From Candidatus Aquicultor primus (GTDB taxonomy: Bacteria > Actinomycetota > Aquicultoria > Aquicultorales > Aquicultoraceae): 15,705 nucleotides of DNA. The DNA is taken from positions 4,144 through 19,848 of the forward strand of contig MELI01000079.1 of the NCBI GenBank assembly GCA_001767575.1. The letters run 5' to 3'. The notes beneath the pieces are model-generated. The model had not been told where the DNA came from. It made no database searches and was given only the letters and a program-made list of their open reading frames with translations. Positions 4,854 to 11,174 of this stretch are shown piece after piece. A program made the translations under genes and the position numbers. Each line of letters opens with the position of its first letter. The first letter of the stretch is position 1.

Positions 4854-5399
4854 TTATTTTGACGAACACCCCCGGCACCCCTTTTCGGCCGCGGGTATTT
4901 GCCTGCCGCATCGCTCACAAACCGTCCAACCCTCGGTATCGCGCCACCGGTTGAGTTTTTTGCTCTGTATTATCAAGGACGCCAGCCGCTCCCTTAAATC
5001 ATCGTCGCCTATGGAGGAGGTGGTCTCCGCTGCTTCCTCTACCTCCTGCTCGCCGATGAGAATATCATCTAGTTCAGGCCTGGCGGCCGCGTCGCTTCCC
5101 CCGACCGCCTTTACAAAAGTCTCGCAAGAGAATTTTATTTCTTGGACTACGGGCGCGGCTAAATAATCATTTAATAGTTCCTTGAGTTTAGGGGTGAATC
5201 CGCTCAGTTCTTGCGCCCAGGCCGGGCTTTTCGCTTTAATATGAAGGACGCCGTTTCGTATATATTTCGGTGAGGTATTCTTGGCAATATCGTCCGTGAC
5301 TACCTGATTCCACGCCTCGACAGCCCTGACCTCTTCGAGCTTTTCTTTAAAGTTGCGCGCATTATTAAATTCCCTCATAACATCAGAAAATCTTTTCAC
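4854..5399 (-). CDS. dciA: DciA-type helicase loader (DUF721) with C-terminal zinc ribbon
   Basis: A 181-residue protein. Its first ~95 residues fit the DUF721/DciA family: an N-terminal helix (FSDVMREFNN), the W30-containing helix (VEAWNQVVTDDIAKNT), then the beta segment NGVLHIKAKSPAWAQELSGF followed by LKELLNDYL. DciA loads the replicative helicase DnaB in bacteria without DnaC or DnaI. A low-complexity acidic linker follows, then a C-terminal CxxC-(10)-CxxC cluster (C161, C164, C175, C178) that looks like a zinc ribbon. The start is a GTG with GGCGGAAG upstream. The position between recF and gyrB matches the actinobacterial arrangement. The family call rests on motif and context; the zinc ribbon is seen directly, but its role is inferred to be DNA or protein contact. 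Confidence 0.85.
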   Translation of the reverse strand: MKRFSDVMREFNNARNFKEKLEEVRAVEAWNQVVTDDIAKNTSPKYIRNGVLHIKAKSPAWAQELSGFTPKLKELLNDYLAAPVVQEIKFSCETFVKAVGGSDAAARPELDDILIGEQEVEEAAETTSSIGDDDLRERLASLIIQSKKLNRWRDTEGWTVCERCGRQIPAAEKGCRGCSSK

Positions 5400-6774: not shown

Positions 6775-7872
6775 TTAGCCGATTCTAACCGGCATTACTA
6801 AATATATAAAACCCTGATCTTGGGCCGGCCTTACAAGCCCGGGTTTGAGCGGGCTGTTTAATTCGATATTAATTTCATCTTCACCGATAGACTGAAGGCC
6901 GTCTAATAAATAGTTTGAGTTGAAGGCGATTTCCATTCCTTCTCCGTCGGTCTTTGCCATAAGCCTTTCTATCGCGGAGCCGAGGTCTTGGGACATCGCC
7001 GATATCTCTACCTCATTATTGCCTATCTTCATCTTCACAAGAGAGGTATTCTGCGCCAAAAGTGCGACCCTTCGCAGACTGGCGATGAGCTCGTGGCGGC
7101 TGAATTTCACCCTTAAATCGCAATCGCTCGGCAGCAGTTGCTGATAGTTGGGAAACTGCCCTTCTATAAGGCGCGAGATTATAACCGTATCTCCGAGGTC
7201 GAAATAGACCAGATTGGGCTCTAGAATTATCTCCACATCTTTATCGCTTACCGCCTTTGAGACCTCATCGAGGCAGCGGCCGGGAATAATGGCACTGCTC
7301 TGGTTTACAGAGAGCCCCTCTACGGCCACATCTTTTATAGAAAGTCTATAGCTGTCGGTCGCGACCATCTTAAGGTGCCCCTTCTCTATTGTCATCAAAA
7401 CACCGCTTAAGACGGGACGTGTCTCGTCTTTCGAAACCGCTTTTATTACATGCTTCACGACATCTGAGAAGACTCTTCCGTTTATCTTAACACCACTATG
7501 ACCCGTTATATTCGGAAACTTCGGGAAGTCGGAGGGCGAATATGAACGAATATCGAAGACCGCATTCCGGCTAAGAATCTTTATATTGCCGCTCTTATCA
7601 TCGCTAACTATTTCAATATTGCCGGCGGGTAGATTCTTAACGATCTCTCCGAGTAGCCGCGCCGGGATAACCGTCTCTCCTTCTCTTATTACCGTTGCAG
7701 GCAGTGTACACCTTATCGATATCTCTAAATCGGTCGCATATAAATCCAACACACCGTTTGCCGCCTTGAAGAGAATACCGGTTAAAACAGGGAGCAAACC
7801 GCGCGGCGAGACGGCCTTCTGCGCGATTTGGACGACTCTGTTTAATTCTTCCTGAGATATTTGTATATTCAC
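6775..7872 (-). CDS. dnaN: DNA polymerase III sliding clamp (beta subunit)
   Basis: The ring-shaped processivity clamp that tethers DNA polymerase III and other partners to DNA. The 365-residue length is normal for three DnaN domains. Recognisable segments include the N-terminal NRVVQIAQKAVSPRGLLPVL, DLYATDLEISI, the middle-domain ETRPVLSGVLM and ATDSYRLS, and the C-terminal YLVMPVRIG, equivalent to the usual MPMR(L/I) ending near the partner-binding pocket. The start is a GTG at 7870-7872 with a strong AGGAGGG ribosome binding site 3 bp upstream. It is the first gene after the dnaA-dnaN spacer and has its own candidate promoter there. yaaA and recF follow at 3-bp spacings, suggesting one transcript. 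Confidence 0.97.
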   Translation of the reverse strand: MNIQISQEELNRVVQIAQKAVSPRGLLPVLTGILFKAANGVLDLYATDLEISIRCTLPATVIREGETVIPARLLGEIVKNLPAGNIEIVSDDKSGNIKILSRNAVFDIRSYSPSDFPKFPNITGHSGVKINGRVFSDVVKHVIKAVSKDETRPVLSGVLMTIEKGHLKMVATDSYRLSIKDVAVEGLSVNQSSAIIPGRCLDEVSKAVSDKDVEIILEPNLVYFDLGDTVIISRLIEGQFPNYQQLLPSDCDLRVKFSRHELIASLRRVALLAQNTSLVKMKIGNNEVEISAMSQDLGSAIERLMAKTDGEGMEIAFNSNYLLDGLQSIGEDEINIELNSPLKPGLVRPAQDQGFIYLVMPVRIG

Positions 7873-7881
7873 ATTCCCTCC

Positions 7882-7921
7882 TATTAATATTTATATATAT
7901 AAGTATAGTTGTAATTAGTAG
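7882..7921. other. A/T-rich tract with DnaA-trio-like triplets (candidate DNA unwinding element)
   Basis: Positions 7882-7920 have 35 A/T out of 39 bases, the most A/T-rich run in the spacer. Reading the plus strand toward the DnaA boxes it ends AAT-TAG-TAG (7913-7921). This resembles the DnaA-trio triplets that lie between DnaA boxes and the melted region in Bacillus oriC. Only three consecutive triplets fit. Position in the dnaA-dnaN spacer is where Bacillus subtilis unwinds. The tract also contains the dnaN -10 element, so the A/T richness has a second explanation. Confidence 0.45.
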
Positions 7922-7931
7922 GTGTTGTTAA
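7902..7931 (-). promoter_or_regulatory. Candidate promoter for dnaN
   Basis: On the minus strand TTAACA (7926-7931, 5 of 6 to TTGACA) is followed after 18 bp by TATACT (7902-7907, 5 of 6 to TATAAT). Predicted transcription would start near 7895, about 20 nt before the dnaN GTG. The -35 lies inside the left arm of the hairpin at 7921-7947, so a protein binding that palindrome would block this promoter. Confidence 0.5.
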
Positions 7932-7947
7932 TTGTGTTAAGAACACC
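7921..7947. repeat. Strong inverted repeat over the dnaN -35 element
   Basis: Arms GGTGTT and AACACC (6 bp) continue, after one G-G mismatch, into TTAA/TTAA plus a further T-G pair, with a 3-nt loop. That is 11 pairs of a possible 12 in 27 nt. On the plus strand it is followed directly by TTTTT (7948-7952), which looks like an intrinsic terminator, but no plus-strand gene precedes it. On the dnaN-coding strand no T-run follows. It overlaps the dnaN -35 and touches a DnaA box at 7949, so an operator or origin structure is more likely. Confidence 0.55.
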
Positions 7948-7948
7948 T

Positions 7949-8056
7949 TTTTGCACACATCAGAAGTATCGCGGGCCTGTAAGAAAAGTAATGATAAAAA
8001 ATGTGCAAACTCTTAGTAATAAAAAGTTTCAACTATTATCAACAGACATATCAACA
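7949..8056. other. DnaA-box cluster in the dnaA-dnaN spacer
   Basis: Four sites resemble the DnaA box TTWTNCACA: TTTTGCACA (7949-7957, plus), GTTTGCACA (8002-8010, minus, one mismatch), TTATCAACA (8036-8044, plus, one mismatch) and ATATCAACA (8048-8056, plus, two mismatches). The last two repeat at 12-bp spacing. The cluster directly follows the dnaA stop codon and precedes the A/T-rich tract. This fits the downstream half of a bipartite origin, and possibly DnaA control of dnaN. Only the first matches the degenerate consensus fully. Confidence 0.6.
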
Positions 8057-8060
8057 GGTT

Positions 8061-9419
8061 TTAAGTCTTCTGTTTGATGCGATTTGTCAGTTCCTGAATC
8101 TGATTATATACTTCCCGGCGCGTAGTTATCATTTTATTTACCTTGGAGTTCGCGTACATGACCGTCGTGTGGTCACGGCCGCCAAACTCTTCCCCTATCT
8201 TCGGGAGGCTCATGTCGGTCAACTCACGAGCCAAATACATGGCCAGCTGTCGCGGATAGACAACATCTTGTGAGCGTTTGTTTCCGGTAAGCTGCGTCTT
8301 TGATAAGTTGAAATATTTACAGACCTCCGATTGTATGGTGTGTATCGATATGGGCCGGCTCGCCCGGTTAGGAAAGATGTCTTTAAGAACAGTCTCAGCA
8401 AGCTCTCTGGTCAGAGTCTCCTTATTCAGGTTTGAAAAGGCGATAATGCGAATTAGCGCCCCCTCAAGTTCACGGATATTGGATTGTATGCGGGATGCGA
8501 CAAACTCGAGGATATCTTTGTCCACAGAGAGGTGTTCTATCTGAGCCTTCTTGTCTAATATGGCTATTCTCGTCTCAAGGTCGGGAGGTTGTATGTCAGT
8601 GATAAGACCCCACTCAAAACGGGACCGCAGCCGATCCTCCAGGGTCGCGATATCTTTAGGCGGCCTGTCGCTGGAGAGGACGATCTGTTTATTGGCGCTA
8701 TGTAGTGTATTAAACGTGTGAAAAAATTCCTCCTGCGTCGCCTCTTTATTCTCAAGGAATTGTATATCGTCGACGAGGAGTATGTCATTATCCCGGTAAC
8801 GTTTCTGAAAACCGGAAATTTTATCTTTATCACGGATGGAATTTATGAAATCACTCGTAAATTTTTCGCAAGAGACATATTTTATTTTAAGTGACGGATG
8901 ATGTTTTATCGCATAATATACGATAGCCTGGAGTAAATGGGTCTTGCCGAGCCCTACTCCGCCATAGATAAAGAGCGGATTATATGCTTTTGAGGGAGAT
9001 TCCGCGACGGCGAGGGCAGCGGCGTGAGCGAACCGGTTGCTGCCGCCTATTACAAAAGAATCAAAGGTATATTTTTCGTTTAGATTTATCGGACGGCTTT
9101 TGTGCTCGGACGGCTTTTGCCTCTTTTCATCCTGTTGTTCCTGTGGTTGCTCGGCGCTTTCATCGACAACGACCTTAATAAACATCTCCTCGGCCAGGAC
9201 CTGAAAAAGCGCGTCTTCTATCAGGCTGCTGTAGCGCGACTCGAGCCATTCTTTAGCAAAAGGACTTGGTGCGAAGATAACAATAGCGTCGCCATCTATT
9301 TGGGCAGGCTTCGTATTCTCAAACCAGGCATTGAATGTGGGCGGGTTGAGCTGGTTTTTTATTATTTTGAGTACTTCGTTCCAGATGAGATCGAGCTGGT
9401 TTTGCAAGAAAAAAGACAC
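8061..9419 (-). CDS. dnaA: Chromosomal replication initiator DnaA
   Basis: The AAA+ protein that binds DnaA boxes, melts the origin and recruits the helicase. At 452 residues it has all four domains: domain I (about 1-87, [22 protein letters not shown]), a short linker (about 88-113), AAA+ domain III with Walker A GGVGLGKT at 153-160, Walker B LLVDDIQF at 214-221, arginine finger R267 in LRSRFEWGL and sensor [14 protein letters not shown], and the DNA-binding domain IV with the signature GGRDHTT at 413-419. The start is taken as GTG 9417-9419, 4 bp after the stop of the upstream GHKL gene. A GGCGG stretch abuts this GTG, too close for ideal spacing. A TTG four codons downstream would be better spaced but loses little, so the exact start is uncertain. 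Translation is probably coupled to the upstream gene. Confidence 0.98.
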
Positions 9420-9423
9420 CCGC

Positions 9424-10272
9424 CTATTGATTGAGAATATCGTCCAGGTATTCTATCCCTAATAATGTAAGAACCCGTTTACCTTGTTCATCAGAGGAGA
9501 TTAGAGATTTCTCTTCCAAGTATATCAAATCACGGTACGCGGTGCTAAGGCCTATGCCGAGTTCGCCGGCGATTTTAGACGGTCCGGTAGAGCCTATCTC
9601 CATCATCAAGAAGAGAACTTGTTTTTGGCGTTTATTTAGCTCTATTTCTGCCGGCACAGGGGCCTGCTCTCGGCTCTCGGCGGCCACCTTATCGGGAACG
9701 CTCAGAGTTATGACCGTTCCGGTATCGAGGTTGTCTTCCACTTCGATGGCCCCGCCGAGAAATGATATAGTCTCTCTAATAATGGGCAACCCGGAGCCGA
9801 CTCCTTTTATATATTGTTTCATATCAGAGGTCGCTGTGGAAAAACCGGGTTCGCACGCCTTATCCTTGTTCTTTATTCCCGGGCCCTGGTCGGAGATGCG
9901 CACCGTGTTTCCATTGTTATAAATACTGATGACAATATCTCTAAAATAAGCGTGTATCAGGTTCTCAATCGCTTCTCGCAAGACCGTATAGGGAACATTT
10001 CCGCCAATTTCTTTGGAATATTGATAAGTCTTGGTAGCGAGAAGATTTATAAAGTCATCGTAATCTTTAGAATTTAATTCCACCACCCGCGGTGCGGCCA
10101 TAAAGGAATCATAAATAGCAAGCCTGGCGATGTTGTTGAGCTGGGCAGATGGCTCTGTGCCGGCAGAACTGGCGTCGTCTAAAACTTTAGGCGGCTCAAC
10201 CGCCGGCTCTTTGACCGCAGAACCATCGGCAGTCTCTAGATTATTAATGAAGCGTAGAAAATGGCTTTCCAT
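9424..10272 (-). CDS. GHKL ATPase fused to winged helix-turn-helix, upstream of dnaA
   Basis: A 282-residue soluble protein. Residues 1-60 are low-complexity (A/P/E-rich). Residues about 65-195 form a GHKL ATPase fold with N-box E100-x-x-x-N104 in [14 protein letters not shown]1 box DQGPGI (128-133) and G2 box GVGSGLPI (157-164). No phospho-acceptor histidine domain, receiver, sensor or membrane segment is visible, so it resembles anti-sigma/serine-kinase ATPases (SpoIIAB/RsbW-like) more than a sensor kinase. Residues about 210-282 look like a winged helix: [27 protein letters not shown], then a KRVLTLLG wing. The ATG has GGATGG upstream. It is the origin-proximal gene and ends 4 bp before dnaA, so both are very likely one operon. 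I infer a DNA-binding, nucleotide-responsive regulator, perhaps of its own promoter and dnaA. I recognise no named family. Confidence 0.85.
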
Positions 10273-10373
10273 ATCCCATCCAATGTATATTCTTGATTTA
10301 AGTTATCCCCCGGGTTATTAACAATACATCAAAATCTCTAAAAACAAAAAGTCGCGACGTTATCGGGCTTTTC

Positions 10374-10402
10374 ATTAAATATTCTATTGTTGATTGTACC
10401 AA
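10374..10402 (-). promoter_or_regulatory. Candidate promoter for the GHKL-dnaA operon
   Basis: On the minus strand TTGGTA (10397-10402, 4 of 6) and TTTAAT (10374-10379, 5 of 6) are spaced by 17 bp. Predicted start near 10367 leaves about 95 nt of leader. Overlapping alternatives with TACAAT or TAGAAT as -10 have poorer -35 partners. The DnaA boxes at 10458-10499 lie about 55-100 bp upstream, so DnaA control is possible. Confidence 0.38.
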
Positions 10403-10587
10403 AATGAAAAGCTTGCGAAATCGTTCTGACAATAAAAAAGCAGGCGAAAGAGTAAAGTTTTACACATAGATATCCACAGTTGTGGAAAAGTGTTGAAAAA
10501 CATTCGAAATCATTTCATCGAATGGCTTGTAGAAAAAGAATAACCCATAAATTGGCTTTCCAAAAAGATAAGGAGTGGTTTGAATAG

Positions 10588-10625
10588 CCGGCTTCTGTGG
10601 AAAACCTTGTTTTCTTAAAAGCCGG
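10588..10625. repeat. Two-stage inverted repeat in oriC containing a DnaA box
   Basis: Outer arms CCGGCTT (10588-10594) and AAGCCGG (10619-10625) enclose inner arms GAAAAC (10600-10605) and GTTTTC (10609-10614) around a CTT loop, with a small internal bulge (CTGTG opposite TTAA). That is 13 base pairs in 38 nt. The minus-strand DnaA box TTTTCCACA (10596-10604) spans the bulge and the inner arm. No T-run follows on either strand, so a terminator is unlikely. Confidence 0.5.
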
Positions 10626-10978
10626 TCCAAAACCGCCTCATTAATAGGGCTTCGTTTAATAAAAAATAACGACGGCCCTGCGTAAATGATTTTACCCTAT
10701 CTGAGCACGCGTTTTAAAAGCACTAGAAATAGTAGGTGCCTAGAAGGGACAATAATTGCACCTTAAGACAAGCATAAGAACGTGCAAATAAAGGCGATAA
10801 AAAAAGTTATTAACATTATCCACAACAGACAGGCGAACGATTAAGGCAGGGACGCGCAGAACATTTGGATACCCGGGATAGTATTTATTGCCAGGTTTAT
10901 GAAATACGCATCGGCGAGAATCATTATGACGCCGGTGGCTGCGCGGCCGCCCACAAACGACCATGACCGGTATAATCC

Positions 10979-11008
10979 TTGACATCAGCAGCTAGGGAGC
11001 AATATAAT
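10979..11008 (+). promoter_or_regulatory. Consensus promoter of the rpmH operon
   Basis: TTGACA (10979-10984) and TATAAT (11003-11008) both match the housekeeping sigma consensus perfectly, with an 18-bp spacer. Transcription would start near 11015, giving a leader of about 25 nt before rpmH, with its AAGGAG at 11029-11034. Confidence 0.85.
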
Positions 11009-11039
11009 ATAGCAGTTCTTTTTATAAAAAGGAGTTACC

Positions 11040-11174
11040 TTGAAGCGGACATATCAACCAAATAAAAGAAAAAGAAAAAAGACACACGGCTTTCGCATAA
11101 GGATGAGGACCAGAGCAGGCAGAAAGATCATAGCCAACCGCCGTAGAAAAAATAGGGCGAGGCTAACTGCCTAA
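11040..11174 (+). CDS. rpmH: 50S ribosomal protein L34
   Basis: A 44-residue, very basic protein: it begins [19 protein letters not shown] and continues with [22 protein letters not shown], the standard L34 sequence from end to end. L34 is a structural protein of the large ribosomal subunit. The start is TTG at 11040-11042, fixed by the conserved N-terminus and by AAGGAG five bases upstream. It is the first gene to the right of the origin, under a strong promoter, and its TAA stop directly abuts the GTG proposed for rnpA. The rpmH-rnpA pairing is near universal in bacteria. Confidence 0.97.

Follow-up and report, generated by a model that had tools for sequence, protein, structure and literature searches.

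The described systems closest to the one we report here share with it a GHKL ATPase domain, a winged-helix (wHTH) domain or both. The SpoIIAB/RsbW proteins: these are soluble GHKL domains without a histidine-kinase core, which carry an N box of the ExxxN form, possess no wing and have sigma factors as targets and STAS proteins as partners. The histidine kinases and CheA: the ATPase domains of these proteins (KinB, 3d36; HK853) are the nearest solved sequences and feature a similar lid with GxGxG. DIP2311 (PDB 3lmm): this protein, which we take to be a member of the AlbA_2-containing COG2865 (AlbA_2-GHKL-wHTH), also unites a GHKL-like domain with a winged helix. The CARF-wHTH regulators (Csa3/CasR): these are CRISPR-linked and have a CARF domain in the place of GHKL. 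The CapK/CapS pair: here a GHKL kinase controls a wHTH repressor, each of the two proteins having a STAS domain, and immune operons are thereby controlled on DNA damage (PMC13373217). From the operon of dnaA itself a replication factor has been described: the gene for DciA lies between recF and gyrB in many phyla, the protein acts in initiation, and the title calls it essential (PMC5109545).

In the window, by which we mean the whole stretch of 15,705 nucleotides analysed (Candidatus Aquicultor primus, contig MELI01000079.1, positions 4,144 to 19,848), a GHKL domain and a wing are found in a single polypeptide, whose gene stands between dnaA and the leader reaching to rpmH (Table 1). The window also contains the DciA gene (PF05258) at 4854-5399 (-), flanked as usual by recF and gyrB. 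The likeness to CapK/CapS lies in a GHKL domain and a wing that control an adjacent operon, which in the present case is a proposal; in contrast to the two STAS-bearing proteins of that pair, we find one polypeptide with no STAS match and with rpmH and dnaA as neighbours.

Table 1. Coordinates of the features of the ATPase-wHTH locus in the window.
Feature	Position	Strand	Remarks
GHKL ATPase + winged-helix protein gene	9424..10272	-	282 aa
GHKL (Bergerat-fold) domain	9691..10137	-	residues 46-194; N, G1 and G2 boxes intact
Winged-helix domain	9427..9645	-	residues 210-282, C-terminal
N-terminal part	10138..10272	-	short helix at residues 4-12; low-confidence, faster-evolving linker at residues 15-43
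dnaA	8061..9419	-	GTG start 4 bp past the stop of the ATPase-wHTH gene
Leader, possible part of oriC	10273..11039		between the ATPase-wHTH gene and divergent rpmH
Leader DnaA boxes	10458-10466(+), 10481-10489(-), 10596-10604(-), 10816-10824(+)		consensus TTWTNCAMA
Strict DnaA-box match TTTTCCACA	9835-9843	-	inside the ATPase-wHTH gene
21-bp element TGTTRATAAC-N3-GGGGATAA	10303..10323	-	31-51 nt before the ATG; constant 3-nt spacer

The architecture given in the preliminary description, a GHKL ATPase with a C-terminal wHTH and no histidine-kinase dimerisation domain, is upheld. Pfam HATPase_c matches residues 95-194 with 50.7 bits against a cut-off of 26.4, a Pfam scan to E 1 gave no HisKA/DHp match, and the predicted model has a winged-helix fold of the MarR/TrmB/IclR-like kind, which includes a putative DNA-binding wing. 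Most ten-residue blocks of the GHKL part of this model reach a pLDDT of 88-95, the exceptions being 151-160 (77) and 191-200 (71), and most of the 45 residues before the ATPase domain are of low confidence. Across the relatives the linker between ATPase and wing is 7-235 residues long, as judged from an automatic alignment in which some N-terminal starts are probably placed too early; in longer members (L046, 329 aa; L098, 512 aa) P/Q/A-rich linkers separate the two domains. Seven leaders of family f44 share an N-terminal coding stretch, DDFYPFVDSGD-like. The relatives are annotated in generic terms alone, for example as 'ATP-binding protein', 'histidine kinase', 'anti-sigma regulatory factor' or 'hypothetical protein', and we found no description of the ATPase-wHTH family in open-licence PMC literature among the matches listed (titles and abstract starts).

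In a MAFFT alignment of 116 ORFs (from the 120 loci described below, with L094 and L096 left out because the automatic choice of the ORF went wrong, and L123 and L124 because they are the halves of one gene split over contigs) residues E100, N104, H107, D128, G130, G132, G157 and G161 are invariant throughout, and the wHTH positions R247, L249, L252, R266 and G272 are kept in 87-98%. The N box is of the ExxxN form, as in the GyrB encoded in the same window. Judged by these residues, the GHKL domain is predicted to bind ATP and possibly hydrolyses it. The closest solved GHKL sequences are the histidine-kinase and CheA ATPase domains; unlike histidine kinases, however, the ATPase-wHTH protein has no matched dimerisation/phospho-histidine domain and no sensor, and a C-terminal wing instead. 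The structure listing (VIA) consists mostly of wing matches, such that the absence of SpoIIAB from it says nothing about kinship. DIP2311 superposes on the predicted model with an rmsd of 10.9 A, which means either that the domains are arranged differently or that the arrangement in the model is wrong; its target chains are longer (477-556 residues, against 282), and AlbA_2 (Schlafen-type) has no match in the window protein (Pfam, to E 1); Pfam matches of 67 relatives (to E 0.01) fall in 24 families, AlbA_2 not being one of them. We also considered a reading as a defence gene and set it aside: the PADLOC matches are to the wing of CRISPR regulators only.

The gene is linked to dnaA. A search of a sample of 296 Actinomycetota genomes gave matches at E<=1e-3 in 246, many of them weak and to the ATPase part alone, which are presumably kinases. 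Orthologues, with E from 4.1e-184 to 1.9e-18, make up 120 loci in 119 genomes and 22 GTDB families; the next match below them among the matches listed, split pieces aside, covers the ATPase part only (E 2.4e-8). In all 112 loci with dnaA on the fetched stretch (21 families), dnaA lies immediately downstream on the same strand; the remaining eight stretches reach a contig end or carry half of a split gene. In four of these eight (G041, G195, G237 and G076) the ATPase-wHTH gene is at the very end of a contig that begins with dnaA. The distance from the gene's stop to the start of dnaA has a median of 11 nt and a maximum of 205, being at most 25 nt in 86 and at most 100 nt in 107 of the 112 loci; here the first in-frame start codon was taken as the start of dnaA, and single values may be off. 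rpmH was located in 107 of the 120 loci, upstream and divergent in 105. In the other two, both from one genus of family f28 (L079, L086), the gene and dnaA have been turned round as a block between dnaN and rpmH. The position claimed for the gene, 4 bp before the GTG of dnaA, is confirmed for the window, and presence next to dnaA across a clade, which had been left to comparison with other genomes, is supported.

Some lineages lack the gene. Of the 177 genomes without an orthologue we selected by hand 40, from 19 families, for which the place of dnaA was listed: none has a relative upstream of dnaA (tblastn, 1e-3), and rpmH was found in 33 of these regions. In one of them (L125, f13) an ORF on the opposite strand weakly matches the wing alone. 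Three further genomes were examined. In G180 and G015 rpmH and dnaA are present with no ATPase-wHTH gene between them, while relatives of their class or family bear it; in G233 no relative lies within 1.3 kb upstream of dnaA, which aligns in two pieces. In nine of the 177 (G020, G059, G147, G152, G173, G232, G251, G277, G287) dnaA itself has no match at E<=1e-30 either, and in these the absence is probably an assembly gap. In L125 (f13), L132, L133, L157 and L159 (f29), where the gene is missing too, rpmH, rnpA and yidC were not found near dnaA. Since gene-lacking genomes keep dnaA, the latter has no general need of the ATPase-wHTH gene.

We mapped the presence of the gene on a DnaA tree of 145 rows, of which 105 have the gene and 40 do not. 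At least five changes are needed, four of which well-supported branches make unavoidable; shuffles need 35 on average. The tree is a quick one in which long branches meet, and we therefore limit the claim to clustering and to more than one change. One clade of 32 rows is without the gene throughout. An early origin of the gene with losses fits this distribution best. GHKL and DnaA distances correlate with r=0.76 over 102 rows, a value reached by 0 of 999 permutations. For the window against L003, dN/dS is 0.082 for the gene, with 0.037 for GHKL, 0.134 for the wing and 0.345 for the N-terminal 45 residues, and 0.040 for dnaA; against L002 it is 0.052 for the gene, 0.020 for GHKL, 0 for the wing (no amino-acid change) and 0.40 for the N-terminal 45 residues. 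The low dN/dS and the correlation of distances together indicate that the gene is under purifying selection and inherited with dnaA.

The gap of 4 bp leaves no room for a terminator between the ATPase-wHTH gene and dnaA, and the two are likely to be co-transcribed; the sole terminator-like site falls within the ATPase-wHTH gene but on the plus strand, where 2.6 are expected. Promoter-like sites in 9000-11100 number 8, the expectation being 3.6 (sd 2.0). Two of them are minus-strand sites within the gene, and a weak one precedes it at 10410-10381; the case for dnaA having its own promoter there is not convincing, although such a promoter may exist. No riboswitch or leader RNA matched Rfam at the gathering score in the window. 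The earlier suggestion that dnaA expression probably depends on the transcript of this gene agrees at this locus with the short gap and the likely co-transcription, but does not extend to the gene-lacking genomes, which keep dnaA. A perfect TTGACA-18-TATAAT promoter-like site is present before rpmH, at 10979-11008 (+).

The leader on the other side of the gene is rich in DnaA boxes. These have the consensus TTWTNCAMA and number 11 in the window against 2.0 expected, four of them in the leader. Across 105 leaders (median 509 nt), which run to the aligned protein start and thus include some coding sequence, we counted 233 boxes against 16.2 in mononucleotide shuffles, with at least one in 96 and at least two in 71. 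The minimum of the cumulative GC skew, however, is at 7001-8500, on the other side of dnaA from the leader, and box-like sites are found at 7949 and 8036, between dnaA and dnaN; these observations argue against the leader as the sole seat of the origin, part or all of which may be located on the side of dnaA towards dnaN. The placement of the gene between oriC and dnaA is to be qualified accordingly.

Within the leader a 21-bp element, the one that is strongly conserved there, precedes the gene. It is found exactly once per genome in nine of 11 Aquicultor-family genomes, always before the ATPase-wHTH gene, and the backward control pattern has 0 matches in the 11; of the other two, G202 has the element with one mismatch and in G020 the locus is absent. 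At the corresponding place the two leaders of f3 have TGTTGATAA followed by TGTGGA, the single leader of f6 has TGTTGATAT followed by TGTGGA, and the three of f2 have the TGTGGA part only. These counterparts make a DnaA-box pair at least as likely as an operator. The element may thus be a putative site either of DnaA, as a degenerate box pair, or of the wHTH protein, with the related families favouring the former. Inspection by eye of the leader of G180, a genome of the same class and without the gene, did not show the element; this is too little to decide. Enrichment of k-mers and of palindromes with 5-bp arms in the 105 leaders recovered mainly DnaA-box words, along with GTTATTAACA-type and group-specific words, and no wing-specific operator.

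We give close to an even chance to the protein being a soluble regulator that serves the dnaA locus specifically, in which the ATP state of the GHKL domain sets the grip of the wing on the rpmH-dnaA leader. The GHKL domain would bind, and probably hydrolyse, ATP; its open/closed or dimer state, governed by ATP state or by contact with a partner, would set the way in which the C-terminal winged helices engage DNA; these would bind the leader between rpmH and dnaA, and the protein would autoregulate the transcript shared with dnaA and with it the supply of DnaA. The ATP gating, the DNA target, the sign of the regulation and the effect on the DnaA level are parts of this scheme that we infer. Several points tell against it: the wing is less constrained than GHKL in the comparison with L003, some lineages keep dnaA without the gene, the GC-skew minimum lies beyond dnaA and the conserved element is readable as a DnaA-box pair. 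The main rival to such a one-component switch on the dnaA leader is an origin-acting replication protein, an ATP-switched DNA binder helping or restraining DnaA at oriC, with transcription not its main role. The place of the gene between a DnaA-box-rich leader and dnaA would suit such a protein, as would its GyrB-like ExxxN box and the precedent of DciA, a replication factor whose gene belongs to that operon (PMC5109545) and is found in the window too; we nevertheless think it rather unlikely, given the lineages that keep dnaA without the gene, the simpler reading offered by a transcription-factor-type wing and a skew minimum outside the leader.

A kinase that switches partners in the manner of SpoIIAB/RsbW or CapK, with the wing regulated via a phosphorylated partner protein, would account for the ExxxN box and for the match to the spIIAB model TIGR01925 (29.5 bits, E 5.6e-07), and the control of a wHTH repressor by the GHKL kinase CapK (PMC13373217) provides an example. 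Yet that score is far below the cut-off of 135, HATPase_c_2 gives 12.5 bits against 27.4, and among 20 bearer genomes, hand-picked and weighted to small ones, PF01740 STAS matches are found in 11, the window's own genome with eight included, while the other nine have neither PF01740 nor PF13466 matches; between rpmH and dnaA, the neighbours of the gene, there is no STAS gene. The kinship to SpoIIAB/RsbW claimed earlier is weakened by these figures, and the partner-switching reading seems improbable to us. In family f1, that of the window, a STAS gene lies 9.5-11 kb from the ATPase-wHTH gene in the direction of dnaA (G000:C79:1967-2272, outside the window; G060:C7:17807-18112; G083:C211:15787-16086) and may encode a lineage-specific partner. 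We give little credence to a transcription factor for other genes that has no more than a transcript in common with dnaA, with the effect that its dose tracks replication or growth, dnaA not being its target: the lack of a wHTH-specific operator at the locus would agree with it, but a free-standing regulator would hardly need a linkage kept in 21 families and through an inversion.

A gene present once per genome, kept with dnaA in 21 families and endowed with an invariant ATP site and a wing is a candidate initiation regulator; its presence next to dnaA over a large, deep part of the Actinomycetota makes it a good candidate for a new regulator of the start of chromosome copying. It is possible, if doubtful, that it represents an ancestral actinobacterial replication control, in which an ATP-gated switch would read the energy state at the origin and adjust DnaA synthesis or origin opening, in gut Eggerthellaceae as well as environmental lineages, and whose loss would have preceded, or come early in, the large clade without the gene on the DnaA tree. 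We know of no such initiation control in E. coli, Bacillus or Caulobacter; how bacteria beyond a few model species set the supply of DnaA is, to our knowledge, largely open. The question of initiation control is directly testable in named bearers. By protein search these include Candidatus Aquicultor, Candidatus Oleimmundimicrobium, Miltoncostaea marina, a Thermoleophilia bin, and Arabiibacter (with the species Arabiibacter massiliensis), Rubneribacter, Gordonibacter and Raoultibacter, which we take to be Eggerthellaceae. For Candidatus Aquicultor the linkage to dnaA was read directly at L031-L033, and a contig scan of other genomes recovered three Aquicultor-type loci and a weak match in Flaviramulus (L034, residues 190-282, 33%).
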